Shown here one piece after another: positions 17,206 to 63,240 of a stretch of 64,000 nucleotides of DNA. The stretch is from contig JAQGEQ010000107.1 in NCBI GenBank assembly GCA_034620365.1, positions 186,001 to 250,000 of the forward strand. Direction: 5' to 3'. Under the pieces are notes generated by a model. That model had not been told where the DNA came from. It made no database searches and was given only the letters and a program-made list of their open reading frames with translations. Source of the DNA: Pegea sp. RAD2-039 (lineage: Eukaryota; Chordata; Thaliacea; Salpida; Salpidae). The first letter of the stretch is position 1, and each line of letters begins with the position of its first letter. The position numbers were made by a program, and so were the translations under genes.

Positions 17206-17219
17206 GCATTGAGAATTTT

Positions 17220-21900: not shown

Positions 21901-24900
21901 TATGATTTAATGATTAATGATGCTTTTGTAGTTAATTCAATTTAGCTTGTATGATGAAAAAATTTTCTAAAAATATAAAAAGTTTTAAAAACAAATCATA
22001 AAATTGACAAAAAAATTACAAAAAAGTATGAAAATTTTAAAATCAACTATTTTATTGAAGCGTTTATATTCTTCAAAATATCAAATAATGACTTCAAGTT
22101 TATATAATGAGACTTGATAATATTATAATAAAAATGAAAAAAATTACAATTACTTGTTCAAAAAAATTAAAACAGATTATAGAACAAATTATATTAGTAA
22201 AGATTTGGTTATATTAAAAATTTGTAAAATGGAACAACTGATTTTTGTAGGTATTTTAATGTTTTCTATGAGGTTGAAAATAATGAAAATTAAGCAGAAT
22301 AATTTTTTCGGGTAAATGATTTCATAAGTCTAAATTAAATAATTATCAATTGCATTGGTGTTTGAACAAATTAATCTTTATTATTACCGTCTCCATTGCA
22401 TCCAGGAACATTATACGGCCAATCACAATACTTCATAGCTGGATTGAAAACAGTTCTAGCAGGACATTGCAACGTGTATAAGATTCCTGTTTAAATCGAC
22501 AACAATTCAGTGAAAAAAACAAACTTTGTATGTTTTAGTTGGTTTAATTTAACAACAAACAATCAATTAAATGTATAACTTCAAACCAACCTGCACCACA
22601 TTGGTAGAAATGGTTGCAATCTCCTGGTTTTTCAAATGGTTTAGTGCTTAATGGTACTTTGTTAGCACCAATACATTGTGAGTTAGGATCTGAAAGGTTC
22701 ATTTAGTTATCTTTATTGTTTTAAATATTTCTACTGCAATTAAGTAATTTCTAAAAGTTATTTTTTTTAAAGCAGTCACAAAAAGTTCATTAAAAAACTG
22801 AATAGAACTACAGTTTTATTGATACATTTTCATGATTTCATTAAAATTATTAAAATATTTATACTCTTTTTGTTTACTCAAAATTTATACACTAAATTAA
22901 TAAAAATTGTTTTAATGATTAAAAACATTTTTGTAGTTAATGAAATTTTGCTTGTATATTAAACAAACTTCTATAAATATAAAATAAGTTTTAAAAACAA
23001 ATCATAAAATTGACAAGGAATTACAAAAAAGTATGAAAGTTTTAACATCAACTAATTTGTTGAAGCGTTTAAATTCCTCAAAATATCAAATAGTGACTTC
23101 AAGTTAACACAAGAAGACTTGATGTTATTACAAGAATTTTGGAAAAAGTTTCCAAATACTTGTTCGATAGTACTAAAACAGATTATAGAAAAAATTATAT
23201 TATTTAAGATCAAGTTATATTAAACATTTGTAAAACAGAACAACTGAATTCATGTTTAAGTTATTTTAATGTTTTCTATGAGCTTGAAAATAATCAAATT
23301 TAAAAAGAATATTTTTTTCTGATTAGTTATTTCATAACCCTAAAATAAATAATTATCAGTTGAAATTGTGTTTGAACCCTATTATTATTAAAATTACCTT
23401 CTTTTCCGCAACCAGGAACATTATCTGGCCAATCACAAACCTTCAAAGCTGGATTATAAACAGTTCCAGAAGCACATGGCATTGTGTATAAGATTCCTGT
23501 TTAAATCGACAACAATTCAGTGAAAAAGCAAACTTTTTTTGACTTTAGTTAGTTTTTTCTTAACAACAAACAATCAAGTAAATCAATAACTTTTAACCAA
23601 CCTGCATAACATTGGTAGTAATGGTGGCAGTCTCCTGGTCTTTCAAATGGTTTAGTACTTAATGGTTCACCGTCTGGACCAATACATAATGACTTAGAAT
23701 CTGAAAGTTCAATATAACAGCAACTTTATTATAATTGAAAAAATAACTTTTTTTTGAAAGAAAGAAAAATAATTAAAAGTTGAGATGATTTTTTTTCTTC
23801 ACTAAAATATTAGATGGTTGTCATTTTTTTAAATGTTAAAAAAGATTTACAATCAATGAAAGTCTTTAATAAGTTTCTTGCAATTTATTTGTGTTACAGT
23901 CAATGTACTACTTATGAAACTATTCAAACCGTTTTTAAAATTTTTAATATTTATGAGAAAATATAAAGAAATTTCAACTAAAAGAGGAAGTCAATGATAA
24001 AATAGAATAAATTTATTTATATAAAAGATCTTTTTATATAATGAAATTTATTTGTTTAAAAACTATTTAAACGCACAAAATTTGTCAAGGAAAGTAAGTA
24101 AGATTGTTTGAAAAACTAACTTTTTTACAAAACTAAAAAATGTATAAAACAATGTTTTATCAAATGCTTTTTATCTTGTTTAAATTAAACGAATTGATTT
24201 GATTTTTAAATATACTTCAATTAATTTGTTAATTTATGTTTCTTAAAGGTTTCAGTGAGGTTGAAAGTAATTTTTTCCTAAATTTTTTTTTGCTTTTTAA
24301 ATAAACAAAGTTTCATGAAAATAGATAAGGTTTTGAATACCATATTAAATAAATGACAATGGCTTTGAAGATCTTTTAAATTATTAAGATTAAAAAATTT
24401 TGTTAAAAGGTTCAATTTTGTAAAAATATTTAATAATGACTTCATGTTCATATAAAAAGACTTTATATTATTAAATTAAAAAATAAAGAGCTTCACAAAT
24501 GCGTGTTCGATAGCGCTAAAACATCTTAAACACATACTATTTTAATAAAGTTTACGTTTCATTCAACATTTGTAAACCTCGTTCTTAATCGAAAAGAAAA
24601 ACTACTTTTAGCAAAAAACTAGTTTAAAATCATTTAAACAAAAATTAAAAATACCACCTTGATTTGAATCTGAAAGACTTTCTTTGATTTGATTACCATC
24701 TCCACTGCAATGAGGAACATTCCATGGAAAATCACAAATCTTCAAAACTGGATTGAAAACAGTTCCAGTACCACATGGCATTGTGTATAATATTCCTGTT
24801 TAAATAGACAACAATTCAGTGAAAAAACTATTTATGAATTCAGTTTGTTTATTTCAACAACAAACAATCAATTAAATCAATAACTTCAAACCAACCTGCA

Positions 24901-26848
24901 CCACATTGGTAGTAATGGTGGCAATCTCCTGATTTTTCAAATGGTTTAGTACTTAATGGTTCACCGTCAAGACCAATACATTGTGAATTATATTCTGTAA
25001 TGTTGATTTAGTTAATTTAAAAAAATTTCTACTGAATCTAACATATTGACAAAAGTTATTTTATTTAAAGTAATCATAAAACGTTAAATAAAAGTTAAAA
25101 TAGTACTAAAATTTTATTGATAATTTTCTTGATGTCGTAAAAACTGTTAAAATATTTATCATCTTTGCATTTACTCAAAAGTTATAAACTAAATCTGAAA
25201 AATATGATTTAATGATTAATTATGCTTTTGTAGTTGATTCAATTTTTCTTGTATGATGAAACAGTTTCATGAAAATATAAACAATTTTAAAAACAAATCA
25301 TAAAATTGACAAAAAAATTACAAGATATACTGAAAGTTTTAAGATCAACTATTATGTTGAGGCGTTTAAATTGCTCAAAATATTAAATGATTATTTCAAG
25401 TTAGAATAATAAGACTTGATGTTATTATAAAAAAATGGAAAAAGTTTACAATTACTTGTTCAATAATATTAAAATAGATTATAGAAAAGATTGATTTAGT
25501 GAAGATTAAGTTTTATTAAACATTTTTTAAATGGAACTACAGAAATTATATTTGAGTTATTTGAAAATAATCAAATTTAAGCAGAATATTTTTTTCTGAT
25601 AAATTACATCACAAGTCTAAATTTAATATTTATCAATTGCATTGGTGTTTGAACAACTTAATCTTTATTATTACCGTCTCCATTGCATCCAGGAACATTA
25701 TATGGCCAATCACAAACCTTTAAAGCTGGATTGAAAACAGTTCTAGCAGGACATTGCAATGTGTATAAGATTCCTGTTTAAATCGACAACAATTCAGAGA
25801 AAAAACAAACTTTTATGATTTAATTTGTTTAATTTAACAACAAACAATCAATTTAATGAATAACTTCAAACCAACCTGCACCACATTGGTAGAAATGCTT
25901 GCAATCTCCTGGTTTTTCAAATGGTTTAGTGCTTAATGGAAAACTGTTAGCACCAATACATTGTAAGTTAGGATCTGAAATTTTCATTTAGTTATCTGTA
26001 TTAGTTTAATTCTAAAATAAATATTTATCAATTGAAATGCTTTTTGAACCACTTTGTTCATTCATTTTACCTTCTTTTCCGCAACCAGGAACATTGTCTG
26101 GCCAATCACAAACCTTCAAAGCTGGATTGTAAACAGTTCCAGAAGCACATGTCATTGTGTATAAGATTCCTGTTTAAATCGACAACAATTCAGTGAAAGA
26201 ACAAACTATTGATGATTTCAGTTTTTGTATTTTAACAACAAACAATCAATTAAATCAATAACTTCAAACCAACCTGCATAACATTGGTAGTAATGGTGGC
26301 AGTCTCCTGGTTTTTCAAATGGTTTAGTACTTAATGGTTCATCGTCAGGACCAAAACATTCTGGTGCTGTTTTTGAAAATGGTTTTTAATATAAAAGTTG
26401 ATATAAATGTAATAATTGTACTTGAAAATTATTTTAACAGTTTGATTATGTTTTATTTATCATAATCTTTTAATTTTCTATAAAGCATAATCAATAAAGG
26501 TTTAGCTTACTTGACAGTTTTGATCTGTCTGTCTGCTTCTATAAAAAAAAATAGTATTTTGAAAGTAGGTTAATATCAGATTACTTACAATAGAGTTCGT
26601 GTTACAACTTCTCTAAAATGCTTAATGTTCACTTAGTTATGTTATAATTCTATATAAGTATCACTTAGATAACTATTTCAGAAATAAATAATTCAAATAC
26701 AAAAGTATTTCAATAATATTTTCGGTTTGTTAATATAATACAGATTTTAAATTACAACTAACAGTAATTTTACCTTGACTATAGATGATTCAACCACGAA
26801 TAACTCCGTCAATAAGAAAACAACGAAAATTGAACTTAATTTCAACAT
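18905..26848 (-). CDS. Secreted eight-domain chitin-binding (CBM14) protein, gene 2
   Basis: 19 exons; predicted 591 aa. Exons: 26774-26848, 26589-26612, 26511-26538, 26274-26366, 26071-26169, 25876-25974, 25675-25773, 24896-24994, 24655-24795, 23602-23700, 23398-23496, 22591-22689, 22388-22486, 21577-21675, 21332-21472, 20188-20298, 19984-20082, 19082-19180, 18905-18978. All boundaries are GT-AG and the frame closes exactly. Exon 1 is a signal peptide (Lys-3, hydrophobic 'IFVVFLL'). Each CBM14 domain is two exons split after the third cysteine in phase 1. Domains 1-6 keep all six cysteines and the 'CDWP' or 'CDFP' aromatic. Domains 7-8 are derived: both lack Cys2, and domain 8 also lacks Cys6. 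Domains 1-3 and 4-6 are two copies of one cassette. Known CBM14 proteins bind chitin in cuticle, peritrophic matrix or egg covers; which applies here is unknown. The protein ends CDYQ-stop. Confidence 0.82.
21332..23700 (-). repeat. Three-domain CBM14 cassette, copy 2 (domains 4-6 of gene 2)
   Basis: Domains 4, 5 and 6 match domains 1, 2 and 3 one-to-one. Domains 1/4 end in GKEG, domains 2/5 have the 'GANS' or 'GANK' loop and end in NGDG, and domains 3/6 carry a 14-residue linker extension containing '[12 protein letters not shown]'. In domain 6 the internal alternative donor is mutated (GATGGT to GATGAT), so only the extended exon end is possible, which supports the same choice in its relatives. 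Gene 1 has only one such cassette. Confidence 0.75.
24655..26366 (-). repeat. Three-domain CBM14 cassette, copy 1 (domains 1-3 of gene 2)
   Basis: Partner of 21332-23700. The intron between domains 1 and 2 is only 96 bases here (25975-26070). It is 708 bases in the second copy (22690-23397) and 294 bases in gene 1, so intron length changes freely while the exons stay at 99 bases. Confidence 0.7.
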
Positions 26849-29292: not shown

Positions 29293-30099
29293 TTAAATGA
29301 TGCTGGTATGAATTGGCATCATGGATACATAAGTGTCTTGATTGTTTAAGTCTTCAATACTAGCATAAACATGACTTTCTTCTCTTTGCTGAATGATGTC
29401 TTCTTCTTCAACCTTAGCATCTTGAAGCTCAATATCATTGGCAACGTATTTTTGTTTGTTTTTCTTGAAAAAAGTCTTTTTTAAAACCATGTAACAAATA
29501 AATACAAATAACAGAGCTGATCCAACAGATAAGCCAATCAAGAGAAAGTTGTTAGAAATTTCCTTATTGCTACCAGTAAATAAAGTTGTTGTTTGTTTGT
29601 TACTAGACAAACGATTTGTTTTTGCTTCTGTAAATGCAGTTGTTGGTATTTTTGTTGTTGGTTTAGTCATACCATTCCTTAAACACAAAAATGGAGTAAA
29701 GTAATCTAAATGATCTGCTGTAAGTTGGAACTTCTTGCTGCTATTTCCACGTTGAAGATATAAGCTTTGACACTTATCTGTTGGCAACTGCAAATTTGGA
29801 TCATAATTATTTCCATTAAACTTCATTCCATCTTGCCACTGATATACTCCGTCTGTACAATCAAGTCCAACTCGAAACATTCTTCTTTCTTTAAGGATTT
29901 TAACGTCGAAAAGTTTATCAGATACTTCATCAACTATCTTCTGATTATGTAATGGAATCAACATTCCATAATTTTCTTCACAATATTTGGTTGCTTCAGT
30001 TTTACTTTTGTTTAAATTTACTGCTTCAATCACACCAATACTGGAACAAAAAAACTTCTTTTCTTTATTAATTAGTTTTTGACTGTTTTTCTGAACCAT
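29293..30099 (-). CDS. B-type lectin receptor, chimera of B1 ectodomain and tail type II
   Basis: 268 aa from the first ATG, with open frame and homology upstream to 30147 as in B1. The lectin domain, stalk and most of the membrane span are almost identical to the gene at 10043-10867: 'VGLDCTDGVYQWQDGMKF', 'PTDKCQSLYL', 'FLCLRNGMTK'. After 'CYMVLK' the sequence switches to the tail of the 13.4-kb and 32.6-kb loci: 'KKNKQKYVANDIELQDAK', Y245 in 'HVYASIED' and Y257 in 'TYVSMMPI'. The flanks agree: upstream DNA matches B1, downstream DNA matches the tail-II loci. This is what unequal crossing-over in the span-coding region would leave. The lectin core differs from B1 by a few residues (N to Y before 'GMLIPL', KW to RM), so it is not brand new. 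Calcium-binding motifs and a signal peptide are not visible. Confidence 0.75.
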   Translation of the reverse strand: MVQKNSQKLINKEKKFFCSSIGVIEAVNLNKSKTEATKYCEENYGMLIPLHNQKIVDEVSDKLFDVKILKERRMFRVGLDCTDGVYQWQDGMKFNGNNYDPNLQLPTDKCQSLYLQRGNSSKKFQLTADHLDYFTPFLCLRNGMTKPTTKIPTTAFTEAKTNRLSSNKQTTTLFTGSNKEISNNFLLIGLSVGSALLFVFICYMVLKKTFFKKNKQKYVANDIELQDAKVEEEDIIQQREESHVYASIEDLNNQDTYVSMMPIHTSII

Positions 30100-32598
30100 T
30101 TTCTGATTGTTTAAACCATAAAACTTATCAAGCAAAAACTTAACCAACTTCTCTACTTGTAAAAAAGTTTATTTCAGTTTTAAAGTTAAAAACTTTTCTT
30201 TGTCTTTTTTTTTCTTTTTGTGATAAGTTTACTTCCTTGATATTGAAAAAATGATATTATTTATAAAAAAATAGAATATCTACTTATATAAACTTCTCAA
30301 ATATGGTTTATGTTCAGTAGTTAGTAAGCTTTTAATTAAATGTATAACTTAAATTATTGTGTATTTAATTTAATTGACTATTAAGTTATAACAACTGTTT
30401 GTAGCTTATATCGGAGTACTTACAATTTAATTTACTATTAACTTGATTAAAACAAGTTTATGAAACAAAATTTTTGTTAAATGTAAAGTCAAATATAAAT
30501 TTCAAACAATAAATGTTTATTAATAAAATTATCTAAAAGTTGTTTATAGATTTTCTAATAAAAATGTTATTTATTTTTTAAAAGCATCAAATTATTATCT
30601 ATACAATTTTATCAAATTTATAATCATATGTTTAAACTTGCTGTTAAAAAATCTACTTCTCTTTGCTACCTGATAAAAAAGTCATCAAATTTTGTTCAAT
30701 TTAAACTTTTATGTTTATTACAAGTGAGGTAACACTTGATATCAATATTTGGTTTTGCTGTAGAAACATAAATTTGTTTGCTGTACGTTTTGTACTATTT
30801 TAACATTTCATCAACTAAATTAAAAATTAAATTAAAAGTTTGATGATTAAATAGAATTTCACTTCAGTTAATTCCAAGTAAAATATTTTGTGAGATTTAC
30901 TTCATTAATTCGTTGATGATTTCTAGAAGAGATGATCCCTTTTTTTATTTTCTTAAAACTTCAAAGTATTCAAAATTTTCTTCAAAATGATTTACATCTA
31001 GGACTTTTTAATCAAACAAACGTAATAGTTGATTGTGAAGTGTTATTTTATTCACGAGAAAGTATTTCCAGAATTGAATAAATATAAGTAAATTCTTTAT
31101 TTATGTTTTATATATTATATTTTATTTTTACAACAAATGAGATGTAGAAAGCCTAAAAAGAACACCTTTGACTAACTAACATTCTCACAAATTTAACAAT
31201 CTTATTTAATACTAATATCGATATATCTATCAAAAGAACTTAAATCCTTTAAAGAGTTTAGATTTTATGTTTCAGTTCAACTTTTTCTATCCATTCACAA
31301 ATTAAACCCTTAATAAATAAACATTCTTTGATAACAATAAAATAAAATTAGATAAAAAAAGTTTTTTTAATCTGGTTGGTGGTTTGAATGTAAGAACTTA
31401 TTGAAGATTAAAATAATTTTTATCTTATTTTTAAAGAAACTTTAAATAATTTAGGAAGTGACTAAACCAAAATTAGAATTTCATCTAAATTTGTTGTTCA
31501 CTGATCTTTCGAAACGTTTAAAACAAATTTGCACAACTCTTAGTAGACTACATCTCTTAGTTCAGATTGTTTTTTGTAGTTTTTATTTTGATGAACTATT
31601 TTTTTATTTTCTTTACATTTAATATTTTCAATTATTTTGTTTGAAGAATTTGATTGAAAATAGTTTTATTTTTAACATAAATTAGTTGAAACTCATGTTT
31701 ACCAAACTTTTCCTCAGAATATAAAGATTCTTCAAGAAAAAATTATAAACAATGAACAAAAGGAGAAATTCACAATTTTGTCATTCGAAACTTTTTCCAG
31801 CTTTTTCCTGTTTTAACTAAATAGTATTTTATCTGAGTAAATTTCTTAATAATCAAAACTATGAAATCTTAAATTAGATTCAAAATCAAATCAAACATAA
31901 AATCACAAAGTACTTTTTATTAACTTTATTTGTCAAAATATTTTAATGTTTTGTTTCCACGTTAATTAACAGCATCAAAATTTATTTTTAAACATAAAAT
32001 TTATTTGAAAGAAATTTAAGAACTGCATATGTGATTTACGTTTAGATTAAATCTTTAAAACCATCACAACATGATAAAAGTAAAACTAAATTCAAAGCGA
32101 TTAATAATTTTTTTTTTAATGTTTTGATCTACCCATACAGCTAACTGAATTATTTAATTAAATGATTAAACGGAAATGAAACTATTTTTGTAAGATTATT
32201 TAACGAATAATATAATCAAGATACAATTATTATTTTGGGCGAAAATTTTGCAGTTGAAAATTACTTAAAAATTTCATTAAGAGATATTTAGCTTGTTTAT
32301 AAACAATTTTCTCATTTTTATATTTGTTGAAGATATATATTTATTGAAGCTACTCATCATTAGAATCTGATAATTGGTACATCATTAGCAGATTCTTCAA
32401 CAATAACCAACAATTTTTTGGATTGAGAAAATTAAATAAAGAAAAGAAAAGTTTTCAGAAAATAATCGTAAGAAAAGAATGACTTTAAAATCTGTTTAAG
32501 AGGTTTGAAGCTGATTGTTATTACTAGATTTAGAAACAAAATCAGAAAATAAAATATCCATTTACAGTTTGAAATTCTGGACTAAATGACGTCATCGT
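30100..32598. other. Upstream flank of the chimeric lectin gene
   Basis: AT-rich copy of 10868-13351, with a TATA-like string near 30283-30291. No gene is supported. Confidence 0.5.
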
Positions 32599-39299: not shown

Positions 39300-40195
39300 T
39301 TCAGTTTATGTCTTCTAAGTTGATATAACTTGAGGGAGGGACTAATGGAGAAGAAGTCATCAAACTGAAGATCAATTAGGTTGTGAATAATTTTAAAAAT
39401 CGGAATAAGGTCGTATTTAATTCTTCGGATTTCCAAAGTATCTTGATTGAAGAAGCTGAGACGATGCTTATAACTCTCGTATTTGATATTAAGTTTCCTG
39501 CAAACCAATCTCGTAAATGCTGCCTGAACAGATTCGATTTTTCTGATATCACCAACTTGATATGGCATCCATGCACTGACATTGTATTCAAGAATAGGGC
39601 GTATGTTTAGTTTGAAAAGTTTGACGAAAAACCATGGATCTTTAGAATTAAAAGTCTTTATGATGAGGTGGACAAGCTTGATAGATTTTCAAAAGATTCT
39701 GGAAACATAACTGTGCCATTTGAAGTCAGAAGTCAGAGTAATGCCGAGGTCTATGACTGAGGATACTCGTTCAAGAATAGATCCATTGATGTAGTATTGG
39801 TTGCTGAAGTTGGCAGCTGGCTTACGGGAGAATGTTATAACTTCAGACTTTGTTGGCTGGATTTTAAGTTGCCAATTCGGAGACCAATTTTCTACAATGT
39901 TTAGTGCAGTTTGGAGTTTTGAGTGAGAACCAGATACTTGCTTGATGTCATCTGCATACACAAACACACTGACATTGTCTACTGTTATTAGTCTTCTGAT
40001 GAGGTCTTCAATGAAAATCAAAAAGTGAAGTGGACCCAGAACGGAACCCTGAGGAACGCCGCTGGTGACTTTACTATGAGTAGATAAAGATCTTTCTACA
40101 CGGGTTTGTCCGGTTCTACCTGATAAGAAATCTTCAATCCATTTTTATATAGAGTTGCTGATTTTTATGTTTTTCAATACAGTAATGAGCATATA
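39300..40195 (-). mobile_element. LINE fragment: reverse transcriptase palm and thumb
   Basis: The minus strand encodes, with a few breaks, a CR1/Jockey-like reverse transcriptase: 'RVERSLSTHSKVTSGVPQGS', then the catalytic 'FVYADDIK' (about 39958), 'NWQLKIQPTKSEVITFS', 'DLGITLTSDFKWHSY', and a C-terminal 'YESYKHRLSFFNQDTLEIRR' segment near 39400. A stop and frameshifts are present, so it is inactive. Its low end abuts truncated chitin-binding intron sequence (about 39299); its high end abuts Mis18-type flank (about 40196). It is less AT-rich than its surroundings. Confidence 0.85.
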
Positions 40196-42542: not shown

Positions 42543-43298
42543 CTACGTTACATTACTTGTATTTTTAAGCTCAATATCTTCAGTAGTTGATCTTTCTTTC
42601 TTTTTCTTTTTAAAAAGAAATATCTTCAAAACCATGTAGCAAATAAATACAAATAACAGAACTGATCCAACAAATAAACCAAACAAGAGAAAGTTGTTAG
42701 AACCTAATTTATTGCTACCAGTAAATAAAGTTGTTGTTTGTCTGCTACTAGTGAAAGGTTTGCTTGTTGGTTCTGTCAGAGTAATTGTTGTTTGTCTGTT
42801 ACTAGACATAAAAATATCTTTTGCTTCTGTAAATGCAATTGTTGACCCTTTTGTTGTTGGTTTAGTCTTACTATTCCTTAAACATAATAATGGAACATAA
42901 TAGTTCCATCGATTTCCTTTTAGTTCGAATTTTCTGCTTCTATTGCTCCTTTTAAGATATAAGTTTTGACACTTATATGATGACAAATGCAAGCTTGGAT
43001 CATAATTATTTTCATTAAACTTTATTCCATCTTGCCACTGATATATTCCGTTTTTACAATCAAGTCCTACGTGAATCCAAGTTCTTTTTTTAAAAATTCT
43101 CGCCTCTATAAGTTTATCAGATACTTCATCAACTGTCTTCTGATTATGTATTGGAATCAACATTCCATCATTTTCTTCACAATATTTGGTGGCTTCACTT
43201 TTAGTTTTGTGTAAATTTACTACTTCAATCACACCGATACTGGAATTAAGAAACTTCCTTTCCTTTTTCTTTACTTCTTGAACTTTATTCTGAATCAT
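42543..43298 (-). CDS. B-type lectin receptor with truncated tail (copy B5)
   Basis: 251 aa from ATG. The lectin-like domain (about 18-142) is intact: C40, 'VGLDCKNGIYQWQDGIKF' (C81, W89), C110 and 'LLCLRN' (C139). The stalk has two repeat units ('SSNRQTTITLTEPTSK'), followed by a span (about 202-228) and 'KKKKKERSTTEDIEL'. The frame then ends after 'KNTSNVT', where B1 continues into the tyrosine tail. A small indel near 42550 (AGTAATGTAACG versus AGTAATAATGACG) causes this. The result should reach the membrane but lacks every tail tyrosine motif, so it might act as a non-signalling or decoy receptor, or be an early pseudogene. No signal peptide is seen. Confidence 0.62.
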   Translation of the reverse strand: MIQNKVQEVKKKERKFLNSSIGVIEVVNLHKTKSEATKYCEENDGMLIPIHNQKTVDEVSDKLIEARIFKKRTWIHVGLDCKNGIYQWQDGIKFNENNYDPSLHLSSYKCQNLYLKRSNRSRKFELKGNRWNYYVPLLCLRNSKTKPTTKGSTIAFTEAKDIFMSSNRQTTITLTEPTSKPFTSSRQTTTLFTGSNKLGSNNFLLFGLFVGSVLLFVFICYMVLKIFLFKKKKKERSTTEDIELKNTSNVT

Positions 43299-44145
43299 TT
43301 TCTGATTTTTTAACCATAAAACTTATCAACTAAAAACTCAACCAACTGCTATACTTCTAGAATAATTTGTTTTAGTTTTAAAGTTAAAAACTTTTCCCTG
43401 TTTTTTTAGTAGTTTTTCCTTAAAGCTATTTCCTTGATATTGAACAAATATATTTATTCCTAGATATCTTAGAGTTTTATTAATTTTTTTTTTATTTTTG
43501 TCATGAGTTCTTTTAAACTTATTAATGGTTGGTTTTTTACGAATAATTTAAACACATTTTGTTTAGTTGTTTATTCTGATCATTCACTAAGAGTCATTGA
43601 ATTTAAAACATTCCATTAAAAACCAAAATAAATGTTTTTTTAATTTCAAAATACAAAAATATTCAAAAAATAAATTCTGTGCAAGTCATTGAAGTTTAAA
43701 CTAACCAAAAGTGAGAAAAAAAACAAAATACAGCTATATTAACTAATTATTATTATAATAAGCAGAAAAATAATAAGTTTGATTTCTGCCTCATCAACAA
43801 ATTAAATCTTTTTTCATAATGTGTAATAACAAAAGTAAGTTGAGATTTTTATAGATAAATATATTTTAGTATTTACTAAAGGCTCACTAGTAAGTAATCT
43901 TTTTATTCTAAATTAAATAAAGTTATGTAAAATGGTTCAAAACAAATCTAAAAGCTTTTTTAAAACTGTATTTTAAGACTTAAAGCTATAATTTACAAGA
44001 CATGGATTATTCTAGAAAATGATTTTTATTTGTAAGAACTCGTCAAGTAATAAAACATAAATTTCTTTTTAACAACAATCAAAAGTAAAACTTTAAAAGT
44101 GAAATGTATTTTAATAATACTGATGTCCAACCTATATTAGTAAAA
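43299..44145. other. Spacer between lectin B5 and the Mis18-like gene
   Basis: AT-rich. From about 43480 the sequence is not obviously shared with other spacers in the window. No gene is supported. Confidence 0.5.
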
Positions 44146-50789: not shown

Positions 50790-53700
50790 TCACATATAAT
50801 AATCACAAATCTTCAAATATGGATTGAAATAAGTTCCAGCAGGACATGACAATGTCTCTAAGATTCCTATAAAAATTGAGAACAACTTAGTAAAAGAACA
50901 AACCATTTATGAACTCATCTTTTTATTTTAGCAACAAGCAATCAATTAAATAAATAACTTCAAACCAACCGTTAAAACATTTGTAGTAATGGTAGAGGTC
51001 TCCTGGTTTTTCAAATGGTCCAGTAGTTAATGGTGCACCGTCAGGACCAAAACATCGTGAGTTAGGATCTGAAAATTCATTTTAACAACAACTTCATTAT
51101 AATTTCGAAAATAACTTCGTTTTGAGAGAAAGAAAAATAATTAAAAAATAAAATGAATCTGTTTTCTTCACTATAATATTAGGTAGTTGTTAGTTTTATA
51201 AAATATTTAAAAAAATACAATCAATGATTTTCTTCAATCTGTTACTTTTAATTTATTTGTGCCATGGTCAATGTACTGATTATGAAACTATTCAAACTGT
51301 TTTTCATTTATTAACATTTATGAAAAAATTTAAAGATTAATCAACTAAAATATGAAGTCGATGATAAAATTGAATAGGTTTACCTATACAAAGTATTTTT
51401 TATTTAATGAAATTAATTTGCTTAAAAACTATTTAAATAATCTAAAATTTTCAAAAAATGTAACCAAGACTATTTGAAATTTTAACTTTTTTACAAAGCT
51501 AAACAGTTTATCAAAGAATATCATTTTACATGCATTCTATCTTTCATATAAAAAAGTATTTGGTTAAAGGTTTGAATATACTTCAATTAAATTGTTAATT
51601 TATGTTTTTTTAAAGGTTTCAGTGAGGATAAAAGTAATGCTTTTTTTAATTTCTTTATTTTTGCTTTTAAAATAAACAAACTTTCATGAAAGGTTTTAAA
51701 AACACTTTAAATAAAAGAAAAACAATTAAAGATTTAAATTACAGAGATTAAATTTAAAGACTTTGTTGAAGCGTTTAAATTCATCAAAATTTGATATAAT
51801 TACTTCAAGTTAACATAATATGACTTGATGTTATTAAAATAAAAATGAAAAAGTTTTCAAAAACTTGTTCGATAGTACTAAAACAACTAATAATAAAAAA
51901 TATTATAATAAAGTTTAAGTTTCATTCAACATTTGTAAAACTGTTCTTAATCAAACAGAGAAAGTGATTCTAGCAAAAATTTTAGTCTAAGAATATTTAA
52001 TCAAATTTTGAAATCACTACGTTAATTTGAATTTGAAAGACTAATTTTGATTTAAATACCATTTCGTTTGCGTTGAAGAACTTTTTCTATAATATCACAA
52101 ATCTTCAAATATGGATTGAAATCAGTTCCAGGAGGACATGAAAATGTCTCTAAGATTCCTATAAAAGTTGAGAACAATTTAGTAAATGAAGATATTATTT
52201 GTGAATACAGTTTGTTAATTTTAACAACAAGCTATCTATTAAATAAAATAATTTTAAACCAACCGTTTAAACATTTGTAGTAATAGTTGTAATCTCCGGG
52301 TTTTTCAAATGGTTCAGTAGTTAATAGTTCACCGTCTGGACCAATACATCGTGAGTTAGGATCTGAAAGATTCATTTTAACAGCAACTTTCTTAAAATTG
52401 AAAAAATAATTTTTTTGAGAGAGAAAGAAAAATAGTTAAAAGTTAAAATGAATCTCTTTTCTTCACAAAAATATTAGCTAGTTGTCAATTTTTAAAACTA
52501 TTAATAAGAAATCTACAATCATTGAAAGTCTTTAATAAGTTTCTTGCAATTTATTTGTGTTACAGTCAATGTACTGCTTATGAAACTATTCAAACCGTTT
52601 TTAAAATTTTTAATATTTATGAGAAAATTTAAAGAAATTTCAACTAAAAGAGGAAATCAATGATAAAATAGAATAAATTTTTTTATATAAAAGATCTTTT
52701 TATATAATGAAATTGATTTGTTTAAAAACTATTTAAACGCAAAAAATTTTCAAAGAAAGTAGCCAAAACTGTTTGAAAAACTAACTTTTTTACAAAACTA
52801 AAAAATGTATAAAACAATGTTTTATCACATGCTTTTTATCTTGTTTTAATTAAAGTATTTGATTTGATTTCTAAATATACTTCAATTAAATTGTTATTTT
52901 ATGTTTTTTGAAAGGTTTCAGTGAGGATAAAAGTAATGCTTTTCTTAATCTCTTTATTTTTGCTTTTAAAATAAACAAACTTTCATGAAAGGTTTTGAAT
53001 GCTATATTAATATATTAAATAAATGACAAAGATTTAAAGAAGTTTGATAGTCATTAAGATTAAAAGATTTTGTTGAAGCGTTTAAATTCTTCAAAATTTA
53101 ATATAATTATTTCAAGTTAACATAATATGACTTGATGTTATTAAAATAAAAATGAAAAAGTTTTCAAATACTTGTTCGATAGTACTAAAAAATCTTATAA
53201 TAAAAACTATTTTAATAAAGTTTAAGTTTCATTCAACATTTGTAAACCTGTTCTTAATCAAACAGAAAAAGTGATTCTAGCAAAAATATTAGTCTAAGAA
53301 TATTTAATCAAATTTTGAAAATACTACGTTAATTTGAAATTGAAAGACTAATTTTGATTTAAATACCATTTCCTTTGTATTGAGGAACTATTTCTATAAT
53401 ATCACAAATCTTCAAATCTGGATTGAAATCAGTTCCATTAGGACATGTCAATGTCTCTAAGATTCCTATAAAAGTTGAGAACAATTTAGTAAATGAAGAT
53501 ATTATTTGTGAATTCAGTTTGTTAATTTTAACAACAAGCAATCAATTAAATAAAAAAATTTTAAACCAACCCTTTGAACATCTGTAGTAATGGTTTTTAT
53601 CCCCGGGTTTTTCAAATGGTCCAGTAGTTAATGGTTTACCGTCTGGACCAATACATCGTGAGGTAAGATCTGAAATATTCATTTTAACAACAACTTCTTT

Positions 53701-56700
53701 AAAATTGAAAAAATAATTTTTTTGAGGGAGAAAGAAAAATAATTAAAGTTAAAATTAATATAAAAATTAAAATAGAATGTCTTTTCTTCACAAAAATATT
53801 AGCTAGTTGTCAATTTTTAAAAATATTAATAAGAAATTTGCAATCAATGAAAGTCATTAATAAGTTTCTTGCATTTAATTTGTGTTACAGTCAATGTACT
53901 GCTTATGAAACTATTCAAACCGTTTTTAAAATTATTAATATTTATGAGAAAATATAAAGAAATTTCAACTAAAAGAAAAAGTCAATGATAAAATAGAATA
54001 AATTTATTTATATAAAAGATCTTTTTATATAATGAAATTGATTTGTTTAAAAACTATTTAAACGCACAGAATATGTCAAGGAAAGTCGCTAAGATTGATT
54101 AAAAGCCAAAAGTTTTGGGAATACGAAGCAATTTATGAAAGAATATTATTTTACATGCTTTCTATCTTTCATCTATTAAAATATTTTGTTAAATTGTTGA
54201 ATATACTTCAATTAAATTGTTAATTTATGTTTTTTGAAAGGTTTCAGTGAGGATAAAAAAAATGTTTTTTTAATTTCTTTATTTTTGCTTTTAAAATAAA
54301 CAAACTTTCATGAAAGGTTATGAATGCTATATTAATAAATTAAATAAATGACAAAGATTTAAAGAAGTTTGATAGTCATAAAGATTAAAAGATTTTGTTG
54401 AAGCGTTTAAATTCTTCAAAATTTAATATAATTATTTCAAGTTAACATAATATGACTTGATGTTATTAAAATAAAAATGAAAAAGTTTTCAAATACTTGT
54501 TCGATAGTACTAAAAAATCTTATAATAAAAACTTTTTAATAAAGTTTAAGCTTCATTCAACATTTGTAAACCTGTTCTTAATCAAACAGAAAAAGTGATT
54601 TTAGCAAAAATATTAGTCTAAGAATATTTAATCAAATTTTGAAAATACTACGTTAATTTGAATTTGAAAGACTAATTTTGATTTAAATACCATTTCCTTT
54701 GTATTGAGGAACTATTTCTATAATAACACAAGTCTTCAAATCTGGATTGAAATAAGTTCCATTAGGACATGTCAATGTCTCTAAGATTCCTATAAAAGTT
54801 GAGAACAATTTAGTAAATGAAGATATTATTTGTGAATTCAGTTTGTTAATTTTAACAACAAGCAATCAATTAAATAAAAAAATTTTAAACCAACCCTTTG
54901 AACATCTGTAGTAATGGTTTTTATCCCCGGGTTTTTCAAATCGTCCAGTAGTTAATGGTTTACCGTCTGGACCAATACATCGTGAGGTAAGATCTGAAAT
55001 ATTCATTTTAACAACAACTTCTTTAAAATTGAAAAAATAATTTTTTTGAGGGAGAAAGAAAAATAATTAAAAGTTAAAATTAATATAAAAATTAAAATAG
55101 AATGTCTTTTCTTCACAAAAATATTAGCTAGTTGTCAATTTTTAAAAATATTAATAAGAAATTTGCAATCAATGAAAGTCATTAATAAGTTTCTTGCATT
55201 TAATTTGTGTTACAGTCAATGTACTGCTTATGAAACTATTCAAACCGTTTTTAAAATTATTAATATTTATGAGAAAATATAAAGAAATTTCAACTAAAAG
55301 AGGAAGTCAATGATAAAATAGAATAAATTTATTTATATAAAAGATCTTTTTATATAATGAAATTGATTTGTTTAAAAACTATTTAAACGCACAGAATATG
55401 TCAAGGAAAGTCGCTAAGATTGATTAAAAGCCAAAAGTTTTGGGAATACGAAGCAATTTATGAAAGAATATTATTTTACATGCTTTCTATCTTTCATCTA
55501 TTAAAATATTTTGTTAAATTGTTGAATATACTTCAATTAAATTGTTAATTTATGTTTTTTGAAAGGTTTCAGTGAGGATAAAAGTAATGTTTTTTTAATT
55601 TCTTTATTTTTGCTTTTAAAATAAACAAACTTTCATGAAAGGTTATGAATGCTATATTAATATATTAAATAAATGACAAAGATTTAAAGAAGTTTGATAG
55701 TCATAAAGATTAAAAGATTTTGTTGAAGCTTTTAATTTCTTCAAAATTTTATATAATGACTTCAAGTTAACATAATATGACTTGATGTTATTAAAATAAA
55801 AATGAAAAAGTTTTCAAATGCTTTTTCGATAGTACTAAAAAATCTTATAATAAAAACTATTTTAATAAAGTTTAAGTTTCATTCAACATTTGTAAACCTG
55901 TTCTTAATCAAACAGAAAAAGTGATTCTAGCAAAAATATTAGTCTAAGAATATTTAATCAAATTTTGAAAATACTACGTTAATTTGAATTTGAAAGACTA
56001 ATTTTGATTTAAATACCATTTCCTTTGTATTGAGGAACTATTTCTATAATAACACAAGTCTTCAAATCTGGATTGAAATAAGTTCCAGCAGGACATGTCA
56101 ATGTCTCTAAGATTCCTATAAAAGTTGAGAACAATTTAGTAAATGAAGATATTATTTGTGAATTCAGTTTGTTAATTTTAACAACAAGCAATCAATTAAA
56201 TAAAAAAATTTTAAACCAACCCTTTGAACATCTGTAGTAATGGTTTTTATCTCCGGGTTTTTCAAATGGTCCAGTAGTTAATGGTTTACCGTCTGGACCA
56301 ATACATCGTGAGGTAAGATCTGAAATATTCATTTTAACAACAACTTCTTTAAAATTGAAAAAATAATTTTTTTGAGGGAGAAAGAAAAATAATTAAAAGT
56401 TAAAATTAATATAAAAATTAAAATAGAATGTCTTTTCTTCACAAAAATATTAGCTAGTTGTCAATTTTAGTAAAATATTAATAAGAAATTTACAATCAAT
56501 GAAAGTCATTAATAAGTTTCTTGCATTTAATTTGTGTTACAGTCAATGTACTGCTTATGAAACTATTCAAACCGTTTTTAAAATTATTAATATTTATGAG
56601 AAAATATAAAGAAATTTCAACTAAAAGAGGAAGTCAATGATAAAATAGAATAAACTTATTTATATAAAAGATCTTTTTATATAATGAAATTGATTTGTTT

Positions 56701-59700
56701 AAAAACTATTTAAACGCACAGAATATGTCAAGGAAAGTAGCTAAGATTGATTAAAAGCCAAAAGTTTTTGGAATACGAAGCAATTTATGAAAGAATATTA
56801 TTTTACATGCTTTCTATCTTTCATCTATTAAAATATTTTGTTAAATTTTTGAATATACTTCAATTAAATTGGTAATTTATGTTTTTTGAAAGGTTTCAGT
56901 GAGGATAAAAGTAATGTTTTTTTAATTTCTTTATTTTTGCTTTTAAAATAAACAAACTTTCATGAAAGGTTTTGAATGCTATATTAATATATTAAATAAA
57001 TGACAAAGATTTAAGGAGTTTTGATAGTCATAAAGATTAAAAGATTTTATTGAAGAGTTTAAATTCTTCAAAATATTATATAATGACTACAAGTTAACAT
57101 AATATGACTTGATGCTATTAAAATTAAAATGAAAAAGTTTTCAAATACTTGTTCGATAGTACTAAAACAACTTACAATAAAAACTATTTTAATAAAGTTT
57201 AAGTTTCATTCAACATTTGTAAACCTGTTCTTAATCAAACAGAAAAAGTGATTCTAGCAAAAATTTTAGTCTAAGAATATTTAATCAAATTTTGAAAATA
57301 CTAAGTTAATTTGAAATTGAAAGACTAATTTTGATTTAAATACCATTTCCTTTGTATTGAGGAACTATTTCTATAATATCACAAATCTTCAAATCTGGAT
57401 TGAAATCAGTTCCATTAGGACATGTCAATGTCTCTAAGATTCCTATAAAAGTTGAGAACAATTTAGTAAATGAAGATATTATTTGTGAATTCAGTTTGTT
57501 AATTTTAACAACAAGCAATCAGTTAAAAAAAGAATATTCAAACCAACCGTTTGAACATTTGTAGTAGTGGTTGTAATCTCCGGGTTTTTCAAATGGTTCA
57601 GTAGTTAATAGTTCACCGTCTGGACCAATACATCGTGCAATAGGATCTGAAATATTCATTTTAACAACAACTTCTTTAAAATTGAAAAAATAATTTTTTT
57701 GAGGGAGAAAGAAAAATAATTAAAAGTTAAAATTAATATAAAAATTAAAATAGAATGTCTTTTCTTCACAAAAATATTAGCTAGTTGTCAATTTTTAAAA
57801 ATATTAATTAGAAATTTACAATCAATGAAAGTCTTTAATAAGTTTCTTGCATTTAATTTGTGTTACAGTCAATATACTGCTTATGAAACTATTCAAACCG
57901 TTTTTAAAATTATTAATATTTATGAGAAAATATAAAGAAATTTCAACTAAAAGAGGAAGTCAATGATAAAATAGATTAAATTTTTTTATATAAAAGATCT
58001 TTTTATATAATGAAATTGATTTGTTTAAAAACTATTTAAACGCACAGAATATGTCAAGGAAAGTAGCTAAGATTGATTAAAAGCCAAAAGTTTTTGGAAT
58101 ACGAAGCAATTTATGAAAGAATATTATTTTACATGCTTTCTATCTTTCATCTATTAAAATATTTTGTTAAATTTTTGAATACACTTCAATTAAATTGGTA
58201 ATTTATGTTTTTTTAAAGGTTTCAGTGAGGATATAAGTAATGCTTTTTTTAATTTCTTTATTTTTGCTTTTAAAATAAACAAACTTTCATGAAAGGTTTT
58301 GAATGCTATATTAATATATTAAATAAATGACAAAGATTTAAGGAGTTTTGATAGTCATAAAGATTAAAAGATTTTATTGAAGAGTTTAAATTCTTCAAAA
58401 TATTATATAATGACTTCAAGTTAACATAATATGACTTGATGCTATTAAAATTAAAATGAAAAAGTTTTCAAATACTTGTTCGATAGTACTAAAACAACTT
58501 ACAATAAAAACTATTTTAATAAAGTTTAAGTTTCATTCAACATTTGTAAACCTGTTCTTAATCAAACAGAAAAAGTGATTCTAGCAAAAATTTTAGTCTA
58601 AGAATATTTAATCAAATTTTGAAAATACTACGTTAATTTGAAATTGAAAGACTAATTTTGATTTAAATACCATTTCCTTTGTATTGAGGAACTATTTCTA
58701 TAATATCACAAATCTTCAAATCTGGATTGAAATCAGTTCCATTAGGACATGTCAATGTCTCTAAGATTCCTATAAAAGTTGAGAACAATTTAGTAAATGA
58801 AGATATTTTTTGTGAATTCAGTTTGTTAATTTTAACAACAAGCAATCAGTTAAAAAAAGAATATTCAAACCAACCGTTTGAACATTTGTAGTAATGGTTG
58901 TAATCTCCGGGTTTTTCAAATGGTTCAGTAGTTAATAGTTCACCGTCTGGACCAATACATCGTGAGTATGGATCTGAAATTCATTTTAACAGCAACTTCT
59001 TTAAAATTGAAAAAATAATTTTTTTGATAGAGAAAGAAAAATAATTAAAAGTTAAAATGAATCTCTTTTTTTCACAAAAATATTAGCTAGTTGTCAATTT
59101 TTAAAAATATTAATAAGAAAATTACAATCATTGAAAGTCTTTAAAAAGTTTCTTGCAATTTATTTGTCTTACAGTCAATGTACTGCTTATGAAACTATTC
59201 AAGCCGTTTTTAAAATTATTAATATTTATGAGAAAATATAAAGAAATTCAACTAAAATAGGAAGTCAATGATAAAATAGAATAAATTTATTTATATAAAA
59301 GATCTTTTTATATAATGAAATTTATTTGTTTACAAAATATTTAAACGCACAGAATATGTCAAGGAAAGTAGCTAAGATTGATTAAAAGCCAAAAGTTTTT
59401 GGAATACGAAGCAATTTATGAAAGAATATCATTTTACATGCTTTCTATCTTTCATCTATTAAAATATTTTGTTAAATTTTTGAATATACTTCAATTAAAT
59501 TGTTAATTTATGTTTTTTGAAAGGTTTCAGTGAGGATAAAAGTAATGCTTTTCTTAATCTCTTTATTATTGCTTTTAAAATAAACAACCTCTCATGAAAA
59601 TTTATAAATTTAAAAACAACAAATCTAATAAAAGACAATGGCTTAAAGAACTTTAAAAGTATTTAAGATTAAAAAATTTTGTTGAAATGTTCAATTTTGT

Positions 59701-62343
59701 CAAAATATTAAATAATGACTTCAAGTTAATATAATATTACTGGTTGTTATTATAACAACAATAAAAAAACTTTAGAAAAACTTGTTCAATATTACTAGAA
59801 CAACTTATCAAAATACTATTTTAATTAATTTTACGATTCATTCTAAATTTGTAAATCTCGTTATTAATTTTACAGAAATACTACTTTCATCAGGTTATAG
59901 TTTAAAACTATTTAATCAAAAATGATAATTACCAATTTCATTTGAATCTGAAAGACTTCCTTTGATTTGATTACCATCTCCACTGCAAGGAGGAACATTA
60001 CGTGGAAAATCACAAATCTTCAAAACTGGATTGAAAACAGTTCCAGTACCACATGGCATTGTGTATAAAATTCCTGTTTAAATCGACAACAAATCAGTGA
60101 AAAACAAACTATTTATGAATTTAGTTGTTTACTTTAACAACAAACATTCAATTAAATGACAAACTTTAAACCAACCTGCACCACATTGGTAGTAATGGTT
60201 GCAGTCTCCTGGTTTTTCAAATGGTTTAGTACTTAATGGTTCACTGTCTGGACCAATACATCGTGAGTTCCAATCTGTAAGGTTGATTTAGTTATTTTTA
60301 CAATTTTCTACTCAATCTAAAATATTGACAAAAGTTATTTTGTTTGAAAGTAATCAAAAAAATTTAAATAGAAGTTAAAATAAAACTATAATTTTGTTGA
60401 AAGAATTTCAAGATATCATAAAAGCTATTAAAATATTTATCATCTTTGCATTTACTCAAAAGTTATATTTAAGCTAAAAATGATTTAATGATTAATGATG
60501 TTTTTGAAGTTAATTCAATTTTGCTTGTATGATAAAAACGTTTCATAAAAGTATAAAAAGTTTCAAAAACTAATCATAAAATAGATAAGGAACTACAAGG
60601 AAGTATGAAAGTTTTTATATCAACTATTTTGTTGAAGCGATTAGATTTCTCAAAATATTAAATAATTACTTCACGTTACAACAATAAAACTGGATGTTAA
60701 TAGAATAAAAAAGAAAAAAGGTTACAATTACTTGTTCGATAATACTAAAACATGTTATAGAAAAGATTGATTTTATAAAGATTCAAATTTATTATACATT
60801 TGTAAAATGTAAAAATTGAATTTATATTTAAGTTATTTAAATGTTTTCTATGGGGTTGAAAATAATCAAATTAAAGCAGAATAATTTTCTCTGGTAAATG
60901 ACTTCATAAGTGTAAATTTAATATTTCTCAATTGCAGTGGTGTTTGAAAAAATTAATCTTTATTAATACCGCTTCCATTGCATCCAGGAACATTATACGG
61001 CCAATCACAATACTTCATAGCTGGATTGAAAACTGCATCACCAGGACATTGCCATGTGTATAAAATTCCTGTTTAAATCGACAACAATTCAGAGAAAAAA
61101 CAAACTTTGTATGATTTAAGTTGTTTAATTTAGCAACAAACAATCAATTTAATGAATAACTTCAAACCAACCTGCTACACATTGGTAGAACTGCTGGCAA
61201 TCTCCTGGTTTTTCAAATGGTCTGGTGCTTAATGGCACGCTGTTAGCACCAATACATTGTGAGTTAGGATCTGAAAATTCAATTAATTATATTTATTGTT
61301 TTAGATATTTTTACTACATCTAAGTAATTTTCAAAAGTTATTTTGTTTAAAAGTAATCACAAAAAGTTCATTATAAAGTTAAAATAAAACTTCAATTTTA
61401 CTGGTAAATTTTCATGATGTCATAAAAACTATTAAAATATTTATTATCTTTGCATCTACTTAAAAGTTTTAAACTAAATCTAAAATGATTGCTTTAATAA
61501 TTAATAATGATTTTGTCTTTATCATTTGCATTTGTGCTTGAACCACTTCCTTCACTAATTTTACCTTCTTTTCCGCAACCAGGAACATTGTCTGGCCAAT
61601 CACAAACCTTCAAAGCTGGATTGTAAACAGTTCCAGAAGCACATGTCATTGTGTATAAGATTCCTGTTTAAATCGACAACAATTCAGTGAAAGAACAAAC
61701 TATTGATGATTTCAGTTTGTTTATTTTAACAATAAACAATCAATTAAATGAATAACTTCAAACCAACCTGCATAACATTGGTAGTAATGGTGGCAGTCTC
61801 GTGGTTTTTCAAATGGTTTAGTACTTAATGGTTCACCGTCAGGACCAAAACATACTGATGCTGTTTTTGAAAATGGTTTTTAATATAAAAGTTGATATAA
61901 ATATAATAATTGTACTTGAAAATTATTTTAACAGTTTGATTATGTTTTATTTATCATAATCTTTTAAATTTCTATAAAGCATAATCAATAAGGGTTTAGC
62001 TTACTTGACAGTTTTGATCTGTCTGTCTGCTTCTATAAAAAAAAAATAGTATTTTGAAAGTAGGTTAATATCAGATTACTTACAATAGAGTTGGTTTTAC
62101 GAGTTCTCTAAAATGCTTAATGTTCACTTAGTTATATTATAATTCTATATAAGTATCACTCAGATAACTATTTCAGAATTAAATAATTCAAATACAAAAG
62201 TATTTCAATAATATTTTCGTTTTGTTAATATAATACAGATTTTAAGTTAAAAATAACAGTAATTTTACCTTGACTATAGATGATTCAACCACGAATAACT
62301 CCGTCAATAAGAAAACAACGAAAATTGAACTTAATTTCAACAT
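50790..62343 (-). CDS. Secreted ten-domain chitin-binding (CBM14) protein, gene 1
   Basis: 23 exons; predicted 706 aa. Exons: 62269-62343, 62084-62107, 62005-62032, 61768-61860, 61565-61663, 61172-61270, 60970-61068, 60176-60274, 59933-60073, 58875-58973, 58671-58769, 57548-57646, 57344-57442, 56221-56319, 56017-56115, 54895-54993, 54691-54789, 53571-53669, 53367-53465, 52264-52362, 52060-52158, 50970-51068, 50790-50866. All junctions are GT-AG and phases agree throughout. Exon 1 is a signal peptide identical to gene 2; exons 2-3 are a short basic linker ('RTRKTNSI', 'KQTDRSKLS'). Domains 1-3 have the six CBM14 cysteines and 'CDWP' or 'CDFP'. Domains 4-10 keep Cys1, 3, 4 and 5 but lack Cys2 (Tyr, Lys or Leu instead) and Cys6, and have 'CDII', 'CVII' or 'CDYY' in place of the aromatic. 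Domains 4-8 lie in a 1.33-kb tandem array. The end reads CDYYM-stop because of a 13-base insertion relative to gene 2. Confidence 0.82.
52440..59590 (-). repeat. Tandem array of about 1.33-kb units, each one CBM14 domain with its introns
   Basis: Second-half exons start at 53367, 54691, 56017, 57344 and 58671, giving steps of 1324, 1326, 1327 and 1327 bases. Introns are almost as similar as exons, so the copies are recent or kept alike by gene conversion. Flanking units (domain 9, and the intron before domain 4) are more diverged. Each unit adds 66 codons in frame. Confidence 0.88.
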
Positions 62344-63049: not shown

Positions 63050-63240
63050 ATTGAGAAGCATAATCCAGCCAATCACAAACCTCCAAAGCTGGATTGAAAA
63101 CGGTTCCATTACCACTGTATTGTGAAGAAGATTTCTGTTTAAATCGACAACAATTATGTGAAAAAAACAAACTAATTATTATTTCAGTTTATTTTTTTTT
63201 AACAACAAACAATCAATTAATTTTATAACTTCAACCTAAT
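63050..63240 (-). pseudogene. Remnant of a CBM14 exon and its intron
   Basis: 63050-63143 reads as a decayed second-half CBM14 exon ('NGTVFNPALEVCDWLD') that has lost its opening 'GILYTM', its fourth cysteine and its end, which carries a stop. The following about 95 bases match the short internal intron up to where the first-half exon should begin, and then homology ends. With the 17.2-kb remnant it shows that a further chitin-binding gene once lay upstream of each cluster. Confidence 0.6.

Follow-up and report, generated by a model that had tools for sequence, protein, structure and literature searches.

Tandem CBM14 domains are a feature of insect peritrophins, e.g. eight in HpCBP45. EHEP, a 25-kDa polyphenol-binding protein of Aplysia (8IN3), contains three CBM14 (peritrophin-A) domains, each keeping six cysteines with the bonds C1-C3, C2-C6 and C4-C5 in the crystal structure, and is reported not to bind chitin (PMC10619976); CfAvr4 fits the same pairing (PMC6128652). 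Members lacking the 2-6 pair are also reported in the family (PMC6128652, PMC4844120). Der p 23 (4ZCE) has the CBM14 fold with two disulfides, Cys27-Cys46 and Cys56-Cys69 (PMC12609036), equivalents of C420-C440 and C450-C463 of chitotriosidase, CHIT1 (PMC4844120), and is reported without chitin-binding activity (PMC10619976). Blo t 12 (2MFK) has the same two bonds as Der p 23 (PMC4844120). CHIT1 itself keeps C420-C440 and C450-C463 (PMC4844120); only two CfAvr4 bonds are present in it (PMC6128652), so that its 2-6 bond would be absent. The subject here is gene 1, a CBM14 gene of the salp Pegea sp. RAD2-039, in a stretch of 64,000 nucleotides (nt), the window, which covers positions 186,001 to 250,000 of contig JAQGEQ010000107.1 (C100).

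Gene 1 lies on the minus strand (62343-50790) and codes for a 684-residue signal-peptide protein with ten CBM14 domains, D1-D10. Cys1, Cys3, Cys4 and Cys5 are present in all ten. D1-D3 have six cysteines (six-Cys; predicted pairing 1-3, 2-6, 4-5); D4-D10 do not. Residues at the Cys2/Cys6 positions are C/C in D1-D3, Y/Y in D4 and D5, K/Y in D6-D8, Y/R in D9 and L/absent (stop) in D10. The absence of Cys2 and Cys6 from D4-D10, reported in a preliminary description of the window, is thus real, and the stated coordinates match the gene exactly: the first exon of D4 begins at 58973 on the minus strand, and the stop codon of D10 ends at 50790. That description also took Cys2 and Cys6 for disulfide partners, in agreement with EHEP and CfAvr4. 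Its further point, that the loss was coordinated, is not supported by the wider cluster. Twelve of 77 domains are without Cys2 and with Cys6, none shows the reverse, and the loss looks stepwise. The features of gene 1 are as follows.

62269-62343, minus strand: signal-peptide exon, ATG at 62343, signal peptide called by eye; preferred donor after 75 nt (684-residue frame open), donors at 69 or 86 nt also fitting and likewise leaving the frame open.
62005-62032, minus strand: linker exon, 28 nt.
61565-61860, minus strand: D1, six-Cys CBM14 domain with CDWP (exons 61768-61860 and 61565-61663); Pfam CBM_14 score 57.8 bits.
60970-61270, minus strand: D2, six-Cys CBM14 domain with CDWP (exons 61172-61270 and 60970-61068); 46.9 bits.
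59975-60274, minus strand: D3, six-Cys CBM14 domain with CDFP (exons 60176-60274 and 59975-60073); 53.6 bits.
58671-58973, minus strand: D4, four-Cys domain with CDII (exons 58875-58973 and 58671-58769), Cys2 and Cys6 both replaced by Tyr (TAC); 37.3 bits.
57344-57646, minus strand: D5, four-Cys domain with Y/Y and CDII (exons 57548-57646 and 57344-57442); unit 98.5% identical to D4.
56017-56319, minus strand: D6, four-Cys domain with K/Y and CVII (exons 56221-56319 and 56017-56115).
54691-54993, minus strand: D7, four-Cys domain with K/Y and CVII (exons 54895-54993 and 54691-54789); 42.7 bits.
53367-53669, minus strand: D8, four-Cys domain with K/Y and CDII (exons 53571-53669 and 53367-53465).
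52060-52362, minus strand: D9, four-Cys domain with Y/R (CGC) and CDII (exons 52264-52362 and 52060-52158); 36.5 bits.
50790-51068, minus strand: D10, truncated terminal four-Cys domain with CDYYM (exons 50970-51068 and 50790-50866), Cys2 replaced by Leu, TGA stop ahead of the Cys6 position, AATAAA just downstream; 38.7 bits.

Each domain is built of two exons, mostly of 99 nt, flanked by phase-1 introns, which makes the domain a duplicable unit. All 20 domain exons of gene 1 except the terminal one, which ends in the stop, are bounded by AG/GT in phase 1. Together with the signal-peptide exon and the short second exon they form a single open frame. An annotation or frame artefact is set aside in view of these open exons with canonical ends. 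Different exon ends that would restore the two cysteines, a result named beforehand as fatal to the observation, are not seen in the genomic sequence; both lost codons sit inside exons, and read-through of the second-exon donor in D4-D9 adds just Gly-Ile before a stop. Units D4-D9 are direct repeats of ~1.3 kb, 85-99% identical including introns, so that they are not independent loss events and the change was inherited by duplication. D10 stands outside that identity matrix and belongs to a separate terminal type common to the sister genes (8 terminal domains). Cys6 is missing by substitution in D4-D9 and by truncation in D10, where CDYYM is followed by TGA.

All ten domains are recognised by the Pfam CBM_14 profile (PF01607, curated cut-off 22.1 bits), the check that had been proposed for single domains. 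First queries gave 32.0-38.8 bits for D4-D10 and 46.9-53.9 bits for D1-D3, from sequences that retained one to three residues from the intron side at their start and a surplus Gly at the exon junction. Spliced sequences of six of the ten domains gave 36.5-42.7 bits (D4, D7, D9, D10) and 53.6-57.8 bits (D1, D3). The alignment of D4-D10 reaches only position 46-48 of the 53 profile positions. After Cys5, D1-D3 and D10 carry an aromatic residue (W, W, F and Y, in that order) and D4-D9 carry Ile. Replacement of this aromatic, previously ascribed to all seven altered domains, is therefore confined to D4-D9 (CDII, CVII), since the CDYY of D10 keeps an aromatic at the Trp position. The altered domains have the cysteine pattern of the two-disulfide protein Der p 23: Cys1, 3, 4 and 5, no Cys2 or Cys6, and the spacing C3-x9-C4-x12-C5, as in Der p 23 residues 46-56-69. 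The four cysteines are kept in 23/23 four-Cys and 8/8 terminal domains.

The contig, 393 kb long in a genome of 105.7 Mb, carries 77 complete CBM14 domains in nine runs (C100:156001-393412); other contigs with CBM14 matches were read as far as L001-L008. No COX1 was detected in this genome, although 8 of 14 controls gave a match, so the assembly probably lacks the mitochondrial genome. Arthropod-cuticle and nematode-cuticle families had no match in the genome and none in the controls, a negative of little weight. An exon search on C100 gave 78 first-exon and 92 second-exon matches. Fifteen of the 92 rows lie outside the 77: in 14 a second exon has no first exon, and in one the first exon of the domain is broken. 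Stops occur in some of the fifteen, and none is of the DII/VII four-Cys type. In the run orders below, 6 is a six-Cys domain; 5, Cys2 lost and Cys6 kept; 5+C0, the same with an extra cysteine four residues before Cys1; 4, a four-Cys domain; 4t, a truncated terminal domain.

First run: nine six-Cys domains (eight CENQ).
Second run: six 6 domains, then (5+C0)-4t.
Third run: 4t.
Fourth run (gene 1): 6-6-6, six 4 domains, 4t.
Fifth run: 6-6-6-5-(5+C0)-4-4t.
Sixth run: 6-6-6-5-(5+C0), six 4 domains, 4t.
Seventh run: 4-4t.
Eighth run: 6-6-6-5-(5+C0)-4-(5+C0)-4-4t.
Ninth run: double-length run of 19 domains, including one C0 domain without Cys6.
Window 18905-26366 (C100:204905-212366), minus strand, the other CBM14 gene besides gene 1: 6-6-6-6-6-6, a domain with Cys2 lost, Cys6 kept and an extra upstream cysteine, and a terminal four-Cys domain.

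The six long runs with a terminal domain begin with 6-6-6 and end with 4t; the middle is variable. Five-Cys domains occur in four runs and the Cys6-keeping C0 type in five, all of them sisters. The switch in gene 1 looks abrupt because gene 1 is without these intermediates. The five-Cys domains (C100:263691, 305036, 350058, 369636; L042, L046, L051, L052) read CFPLL or CFFLL after Cys5. The first exon with the extra cysteine (window 20188-20298 and eight sister copies on C100; QCTVEC or QCTVMC) is 12 nt longer, has TGTACTG twice, and belongs to domains that keep Cys6 in 8/9 cases. One of two C0 sister domains scored under the Pfam cut-off (21.2 bits).

The 77 domains divide into 33 with both cysteines kept, 12 with only Cys2 lost, 32 with both lost and 0 with only Cys6 lost (26, 12, 26 and 0 distinct peptides). 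In the 44 domains without Cys2, the Cys6 codon is TGC in 12, TAC in 21 and CGC in 3, and a stop precedes the position in 8. TGC is one step from TAC or CGC, and TAC to CGC takes two steps. Past the stop of the 8 terminal domains an in-frame NVSPC (TGC relic) is read in 3 and NVSPF in 2, and an insertion shifts the frame in 3, including D10. With 12 losses of Cys2 only, none of Cys6 only and the survival of five-Cys domains in four sisters, Cys2 was probably lost first and the orphaned Cys6 afterwards. Cys6 was probably lost through at least three lesions (Tyr, Arg, upstream stop), all in domains without Cys2. That both cysteines went in one concerted step, by a single gene conversion or a replaced exon pair, as the wording of the preliminary description suggests, is an explanation already disfavoured and hardly credible: the abrupt D3/D4 switch speaks for it within gene 1 alone, whereas the two cysteines lie in separate exons ~200 nt apart, 12/77 domains have lost Cys2 only, and Cys6 is missing in three different ways. 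Cys2 itself was probably lost twice in the family (TGC to TAC). Three of the four five-Cys copies read GAC-TAC-CAC, like the six-Cys copy 209602 (GAC-TGC-CAC), printed four-Cys copies read GAT-TAC-AAC, and the first exon and flank of these three group with copy 209602 (node support 93); the six-Cys-like background and this grouping make a second loss likely.

The C0 domains carry a further suggestion. A short in-exon insertion would have given C0, four residues before Cys1, and Cys6 is kept in eight of nine such domains. The series may then be one of disulfide death and relocation, Cys6 being kept where C0 was gained and otherwise removed repeatedly, with a relocated C0-Cys6 bond and with dimerisation of odd-count genes through the orphan Cys6. 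This is put forward tentatively and is rather unlikely. C0 looks single-origin, so that its link with Cys6 retention is one case. The C0 domain without Cys6 has a second exon identical to two four-Cys copies and is for this reason probably a crossover.

Cys1, 3, 4 and 5 are kept in 77/77 domains, and the Cys1-Cys3 distance is invariant. Elsewhere the four-Cys repeats (22 first and 23 second exons) show 49 minimum changes over 192 exon sites (0.255 per site), a length filter having omitted one of the 23 first exons (374851), and their A-B intron shows 23 changes over 105 sites (0.219 per site). This likeness of exon and intron is what simple relaxation or decay would give, the altered modules being functionless passengers of unequal crossing-over between intact ends; the copy at C100:374851 (1/23), with a one-base deletion adjoining the acceptor, agrees with it. 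Decay is nevertheless distinctly unlikely. Gene 1 has intact domain exons, every complete domain retains the four core cysteines, and 0/32 DII/VII second exons on C100 contain a stop in a separate check free of the bias of the exon finder, which demands open stretches and so partly builds in the absence of stops. Under a simple model, the chance of no hit in a cysteine codon of the four-Cys repeats is 0.07 and of no stop 0.08, jointly ~0.005. The earlier judgement that this is not plain decay is borne out in gene 1, which keeps its frames, splice sites and four cysteines.

Minimum changes in the four-Cys repeats are 43 nonsynonymous and 6 synonymous, and 17:0 in the second exon. The synonymous share expected from the neighbouring non-coding spectrum, which is fed by flanks (up300, dn500) with poorly aligned stretches, is ~23% (P 0.047, uncorrected, the sole class below 0.05 among eight); in the remaining seven, P ranged from 0.06 to 0.92, and the exon-change counts of D1 and of the CENQ class are open to misregister. 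Pairwise Nei-Gojobori (NG86) ratios of nonsynonymous to synonymous rates (dN/dS), for classes other than C0 and terminal, are 2.9 in four-Cys, 1.3 in CENQ and 1.04 in five-Cys domains, and 0.5-0.7 in the three DWP/DFP six-Cys classes. The four-Cys module is thus kept as an open four-cysteine frame, the remainder of which changes freely or, given the marginal excess of amino-acid changes, somewhat faster. Four-Cys modules may alternatively be a fast-diversifying recognition surface (immune, gamete or prey/host), freed from chitin binding and scaffolded by the two-disulfide core. The nonsynonymous excess and the ratios above 1 accord with this, as do the interleaving of CBM14 genes with membrane C-type-lectin-like genes (by eye) and the fact that D4 and D10 both find their best match among solved structures in EHEP, which binds polyphenol and not chitin (PMC10619976). 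It is nonetheless possible rather than likely: the P value is marginal and uncorrected, pairwise values reuse changes, and gene conversion can mimic the signal.

The CENQ run (C100:170429-180055; L039, L040) has nine six-Cys domains, with CENQ after Cys5 in eight and CDYE in the last. The aromatic is gone in 8/9 without cysteine loss (pairwise dN/dS ~1.3 over six domains), which makes aromatic loss and cysteine loss separable. Amplification had been taken as particular to the altered type and as a sign of a new function or a structural spacer. It is not specific, since a nearby run is of nine six-Cys domains and pairs of C0 and four-Cys domains were amplified too; with that six-Cys run nearby, amplification as a sign of new function is set aside.

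The observed gene anatomy, cysteine states, tandem origin, core-cysteine conservation and intermediates are best accommodated by a product with a chitin-binding head (6-6-6), a copy-number-variable stalk of weakly binding or non-binding four-Cys modules and an end cap. This arrangement is considered probable, though not strongly so. The product of gene 1 would be a secreted peritrophin-like protein, in which the three six-Cys domains bearing Trp or Phe probably hold chitin. The first loss would have been that of Cys2 (TGC to TAC), which probably occurred twice in the family; the orphaned Cys6 would then have been removed repeatedly, by TGC to TAC, TGC to CGC or an upstream stop. Left without Cys2, Cys6 would expose an unpaired thiol during secretion, and its repeated removal would be expected. 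Only the C1-C3 and C4-C5 bonds would hold the resulting modules together. Two residues after Cys5, CHIT1 has Trp465, which is required for binding, and Avr4 has Tyr103, which contacts the ligand (PMC4844120, PMC6128652). In D4-D9 the Trp at this position has become Ile, so that chitin binding by these modules is probably weak or absent. They probably act as a spacer, the copy number of which would shift by unequal crossing-over of the 1.3-kb phase-1 two-exon units. Gene 1 is without five-Cys domains and its domain cysteines total an even number (46). Of the four sister runs that contain a 5 domain, three have odd totals (37, 57, 47) and the fourth an even one (96); the odd-total genes may have a free thiol or form a disulfide-linked dimer.

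Several points weigh against the head-and-stalk arrangement or the order of loss within it. The excess of 43 nonsynonymous over 6 synonymous changes fits diversifying selection better than a passive spacer. CHIT1 is reported without the 2-6 bond and yet binds chitin, so that loss of the bond need not abolish binding (PMC6128652, PMC4844120, PMC10619976); conversely, every one of the six CHIT1 cysteines is described as critical to chitin binding (PMC4844120). Domain trees nest the C0 domains, which keep Cys6, in a clade without Cys6 (node support 8-25), which taken literally means that Cys6 was regained. Units are mosaic, with C0 first exons grouping with six-Cys copies and C0 second exons with four-Cys copies, and event counts are therefore rough minima. 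Since the five-Cys copy 263691 stands on the four-Cys background (GAT-TAC-AAC), the Cys2 change may have spread by conversion. Regain of Cys6 in C0 domains is not required: the approximately unbiased (AU) test does not reject C0 outside the clade, a placement 21.75 log-likelihood (lnL) units worse on the full segment (p-AU 0.093) and of equal likelihood on the exon-centred segment.

Further features of the cluster are recorded. Lone CBM14 second-exon relics without a first exon lie at window 63051-63143 and 17196-17294; such isolated relics point to birth and death within the cluster. At C100:207577, 303743 and 368339, six-Cys DFP second exons in sister genes have ATAATC in place of the usual donor GTAATC; use of a GT located nine bases upstream would preserve the frame. 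Terminal domains of the DYQ form have their TAA stop inside AATAAA, the DYP form reads CATAAA there, and the DYYM form (gene 1, window 50790-50830) has AATAAA a few bases after TGA. The TAA within AATAAA could double as stop and poly(A) signal. Single-pass membrane C-type-lectin-like frames, named by eye, lie among the CBM14 genes at window 1080-1997, 6441-7361, 10043-10915, 29293-30168 and 42543-43322; several have Thr-rich stalks and tails that carry Tyr. A reverse-transcriptase-like fragment, also recognised by eye, lies between gene copies at window 39689-40144.

Among known proteins Der p 23 is a published precedent for a four-Cys CBM14 domain, and the chitotriosidase domain is reported without the same bond; the four-Cys form is accordingly not a new derivative. 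The x9 and x12 spacings of Der p 23 equal the C3-C4-C5 spacings of the four-Cys domains of gene 1. The Cys1-Cys3 distance differs (25 in the four-Cys domains, 19 in Der p 23). Der p 23 and Blo t 12 are single domains, not tandem arrays, and match D10 weakly (E 0.43, 0.53). The residue of CHIT1 opposite Cys2 is Arg in the alignment. CHIT1 differs in its own extra bond C460-C462, keeps Trp465 and binds chitin (PMC4844120); the EHEP paper (PMC10619976) lists it among domains with a similar disulfide motif, more loosely than the Avr4 paper (PMC6128652). EHEP is the best solved-structure match of D10 (E 9.7e-10) and differs in its six-cysteine domains. Natural disulfide-disrupted variants of Cladosporium fulvum Avr4 are said, in work attributed to van den Burg 2003, to retain chitin binding, reportedly with Cys-to-Tyr changes. 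They belong to a fungal single-domain protein and are isolated alleles, not an amplified module. No description of a six-five-four cysteine series in CBM14 was recognised in the open-access literature searched. Disappearance of a conserved disulfide is usually inferred from end points. Here the stages (six, five, five with a new cysteine, four) stand as related tandem modules in neighbouring genes, their order partly readable from codons, and a chitin-binding fold has apparently been turned into a repeated module minus the third bond and, in D4-D9, the binding aromatic. Four-Cys CBM14 domains are already known as a kind. New, as far as the open-access searches reach, are the mixture in tandem and the survival of the intermediates.

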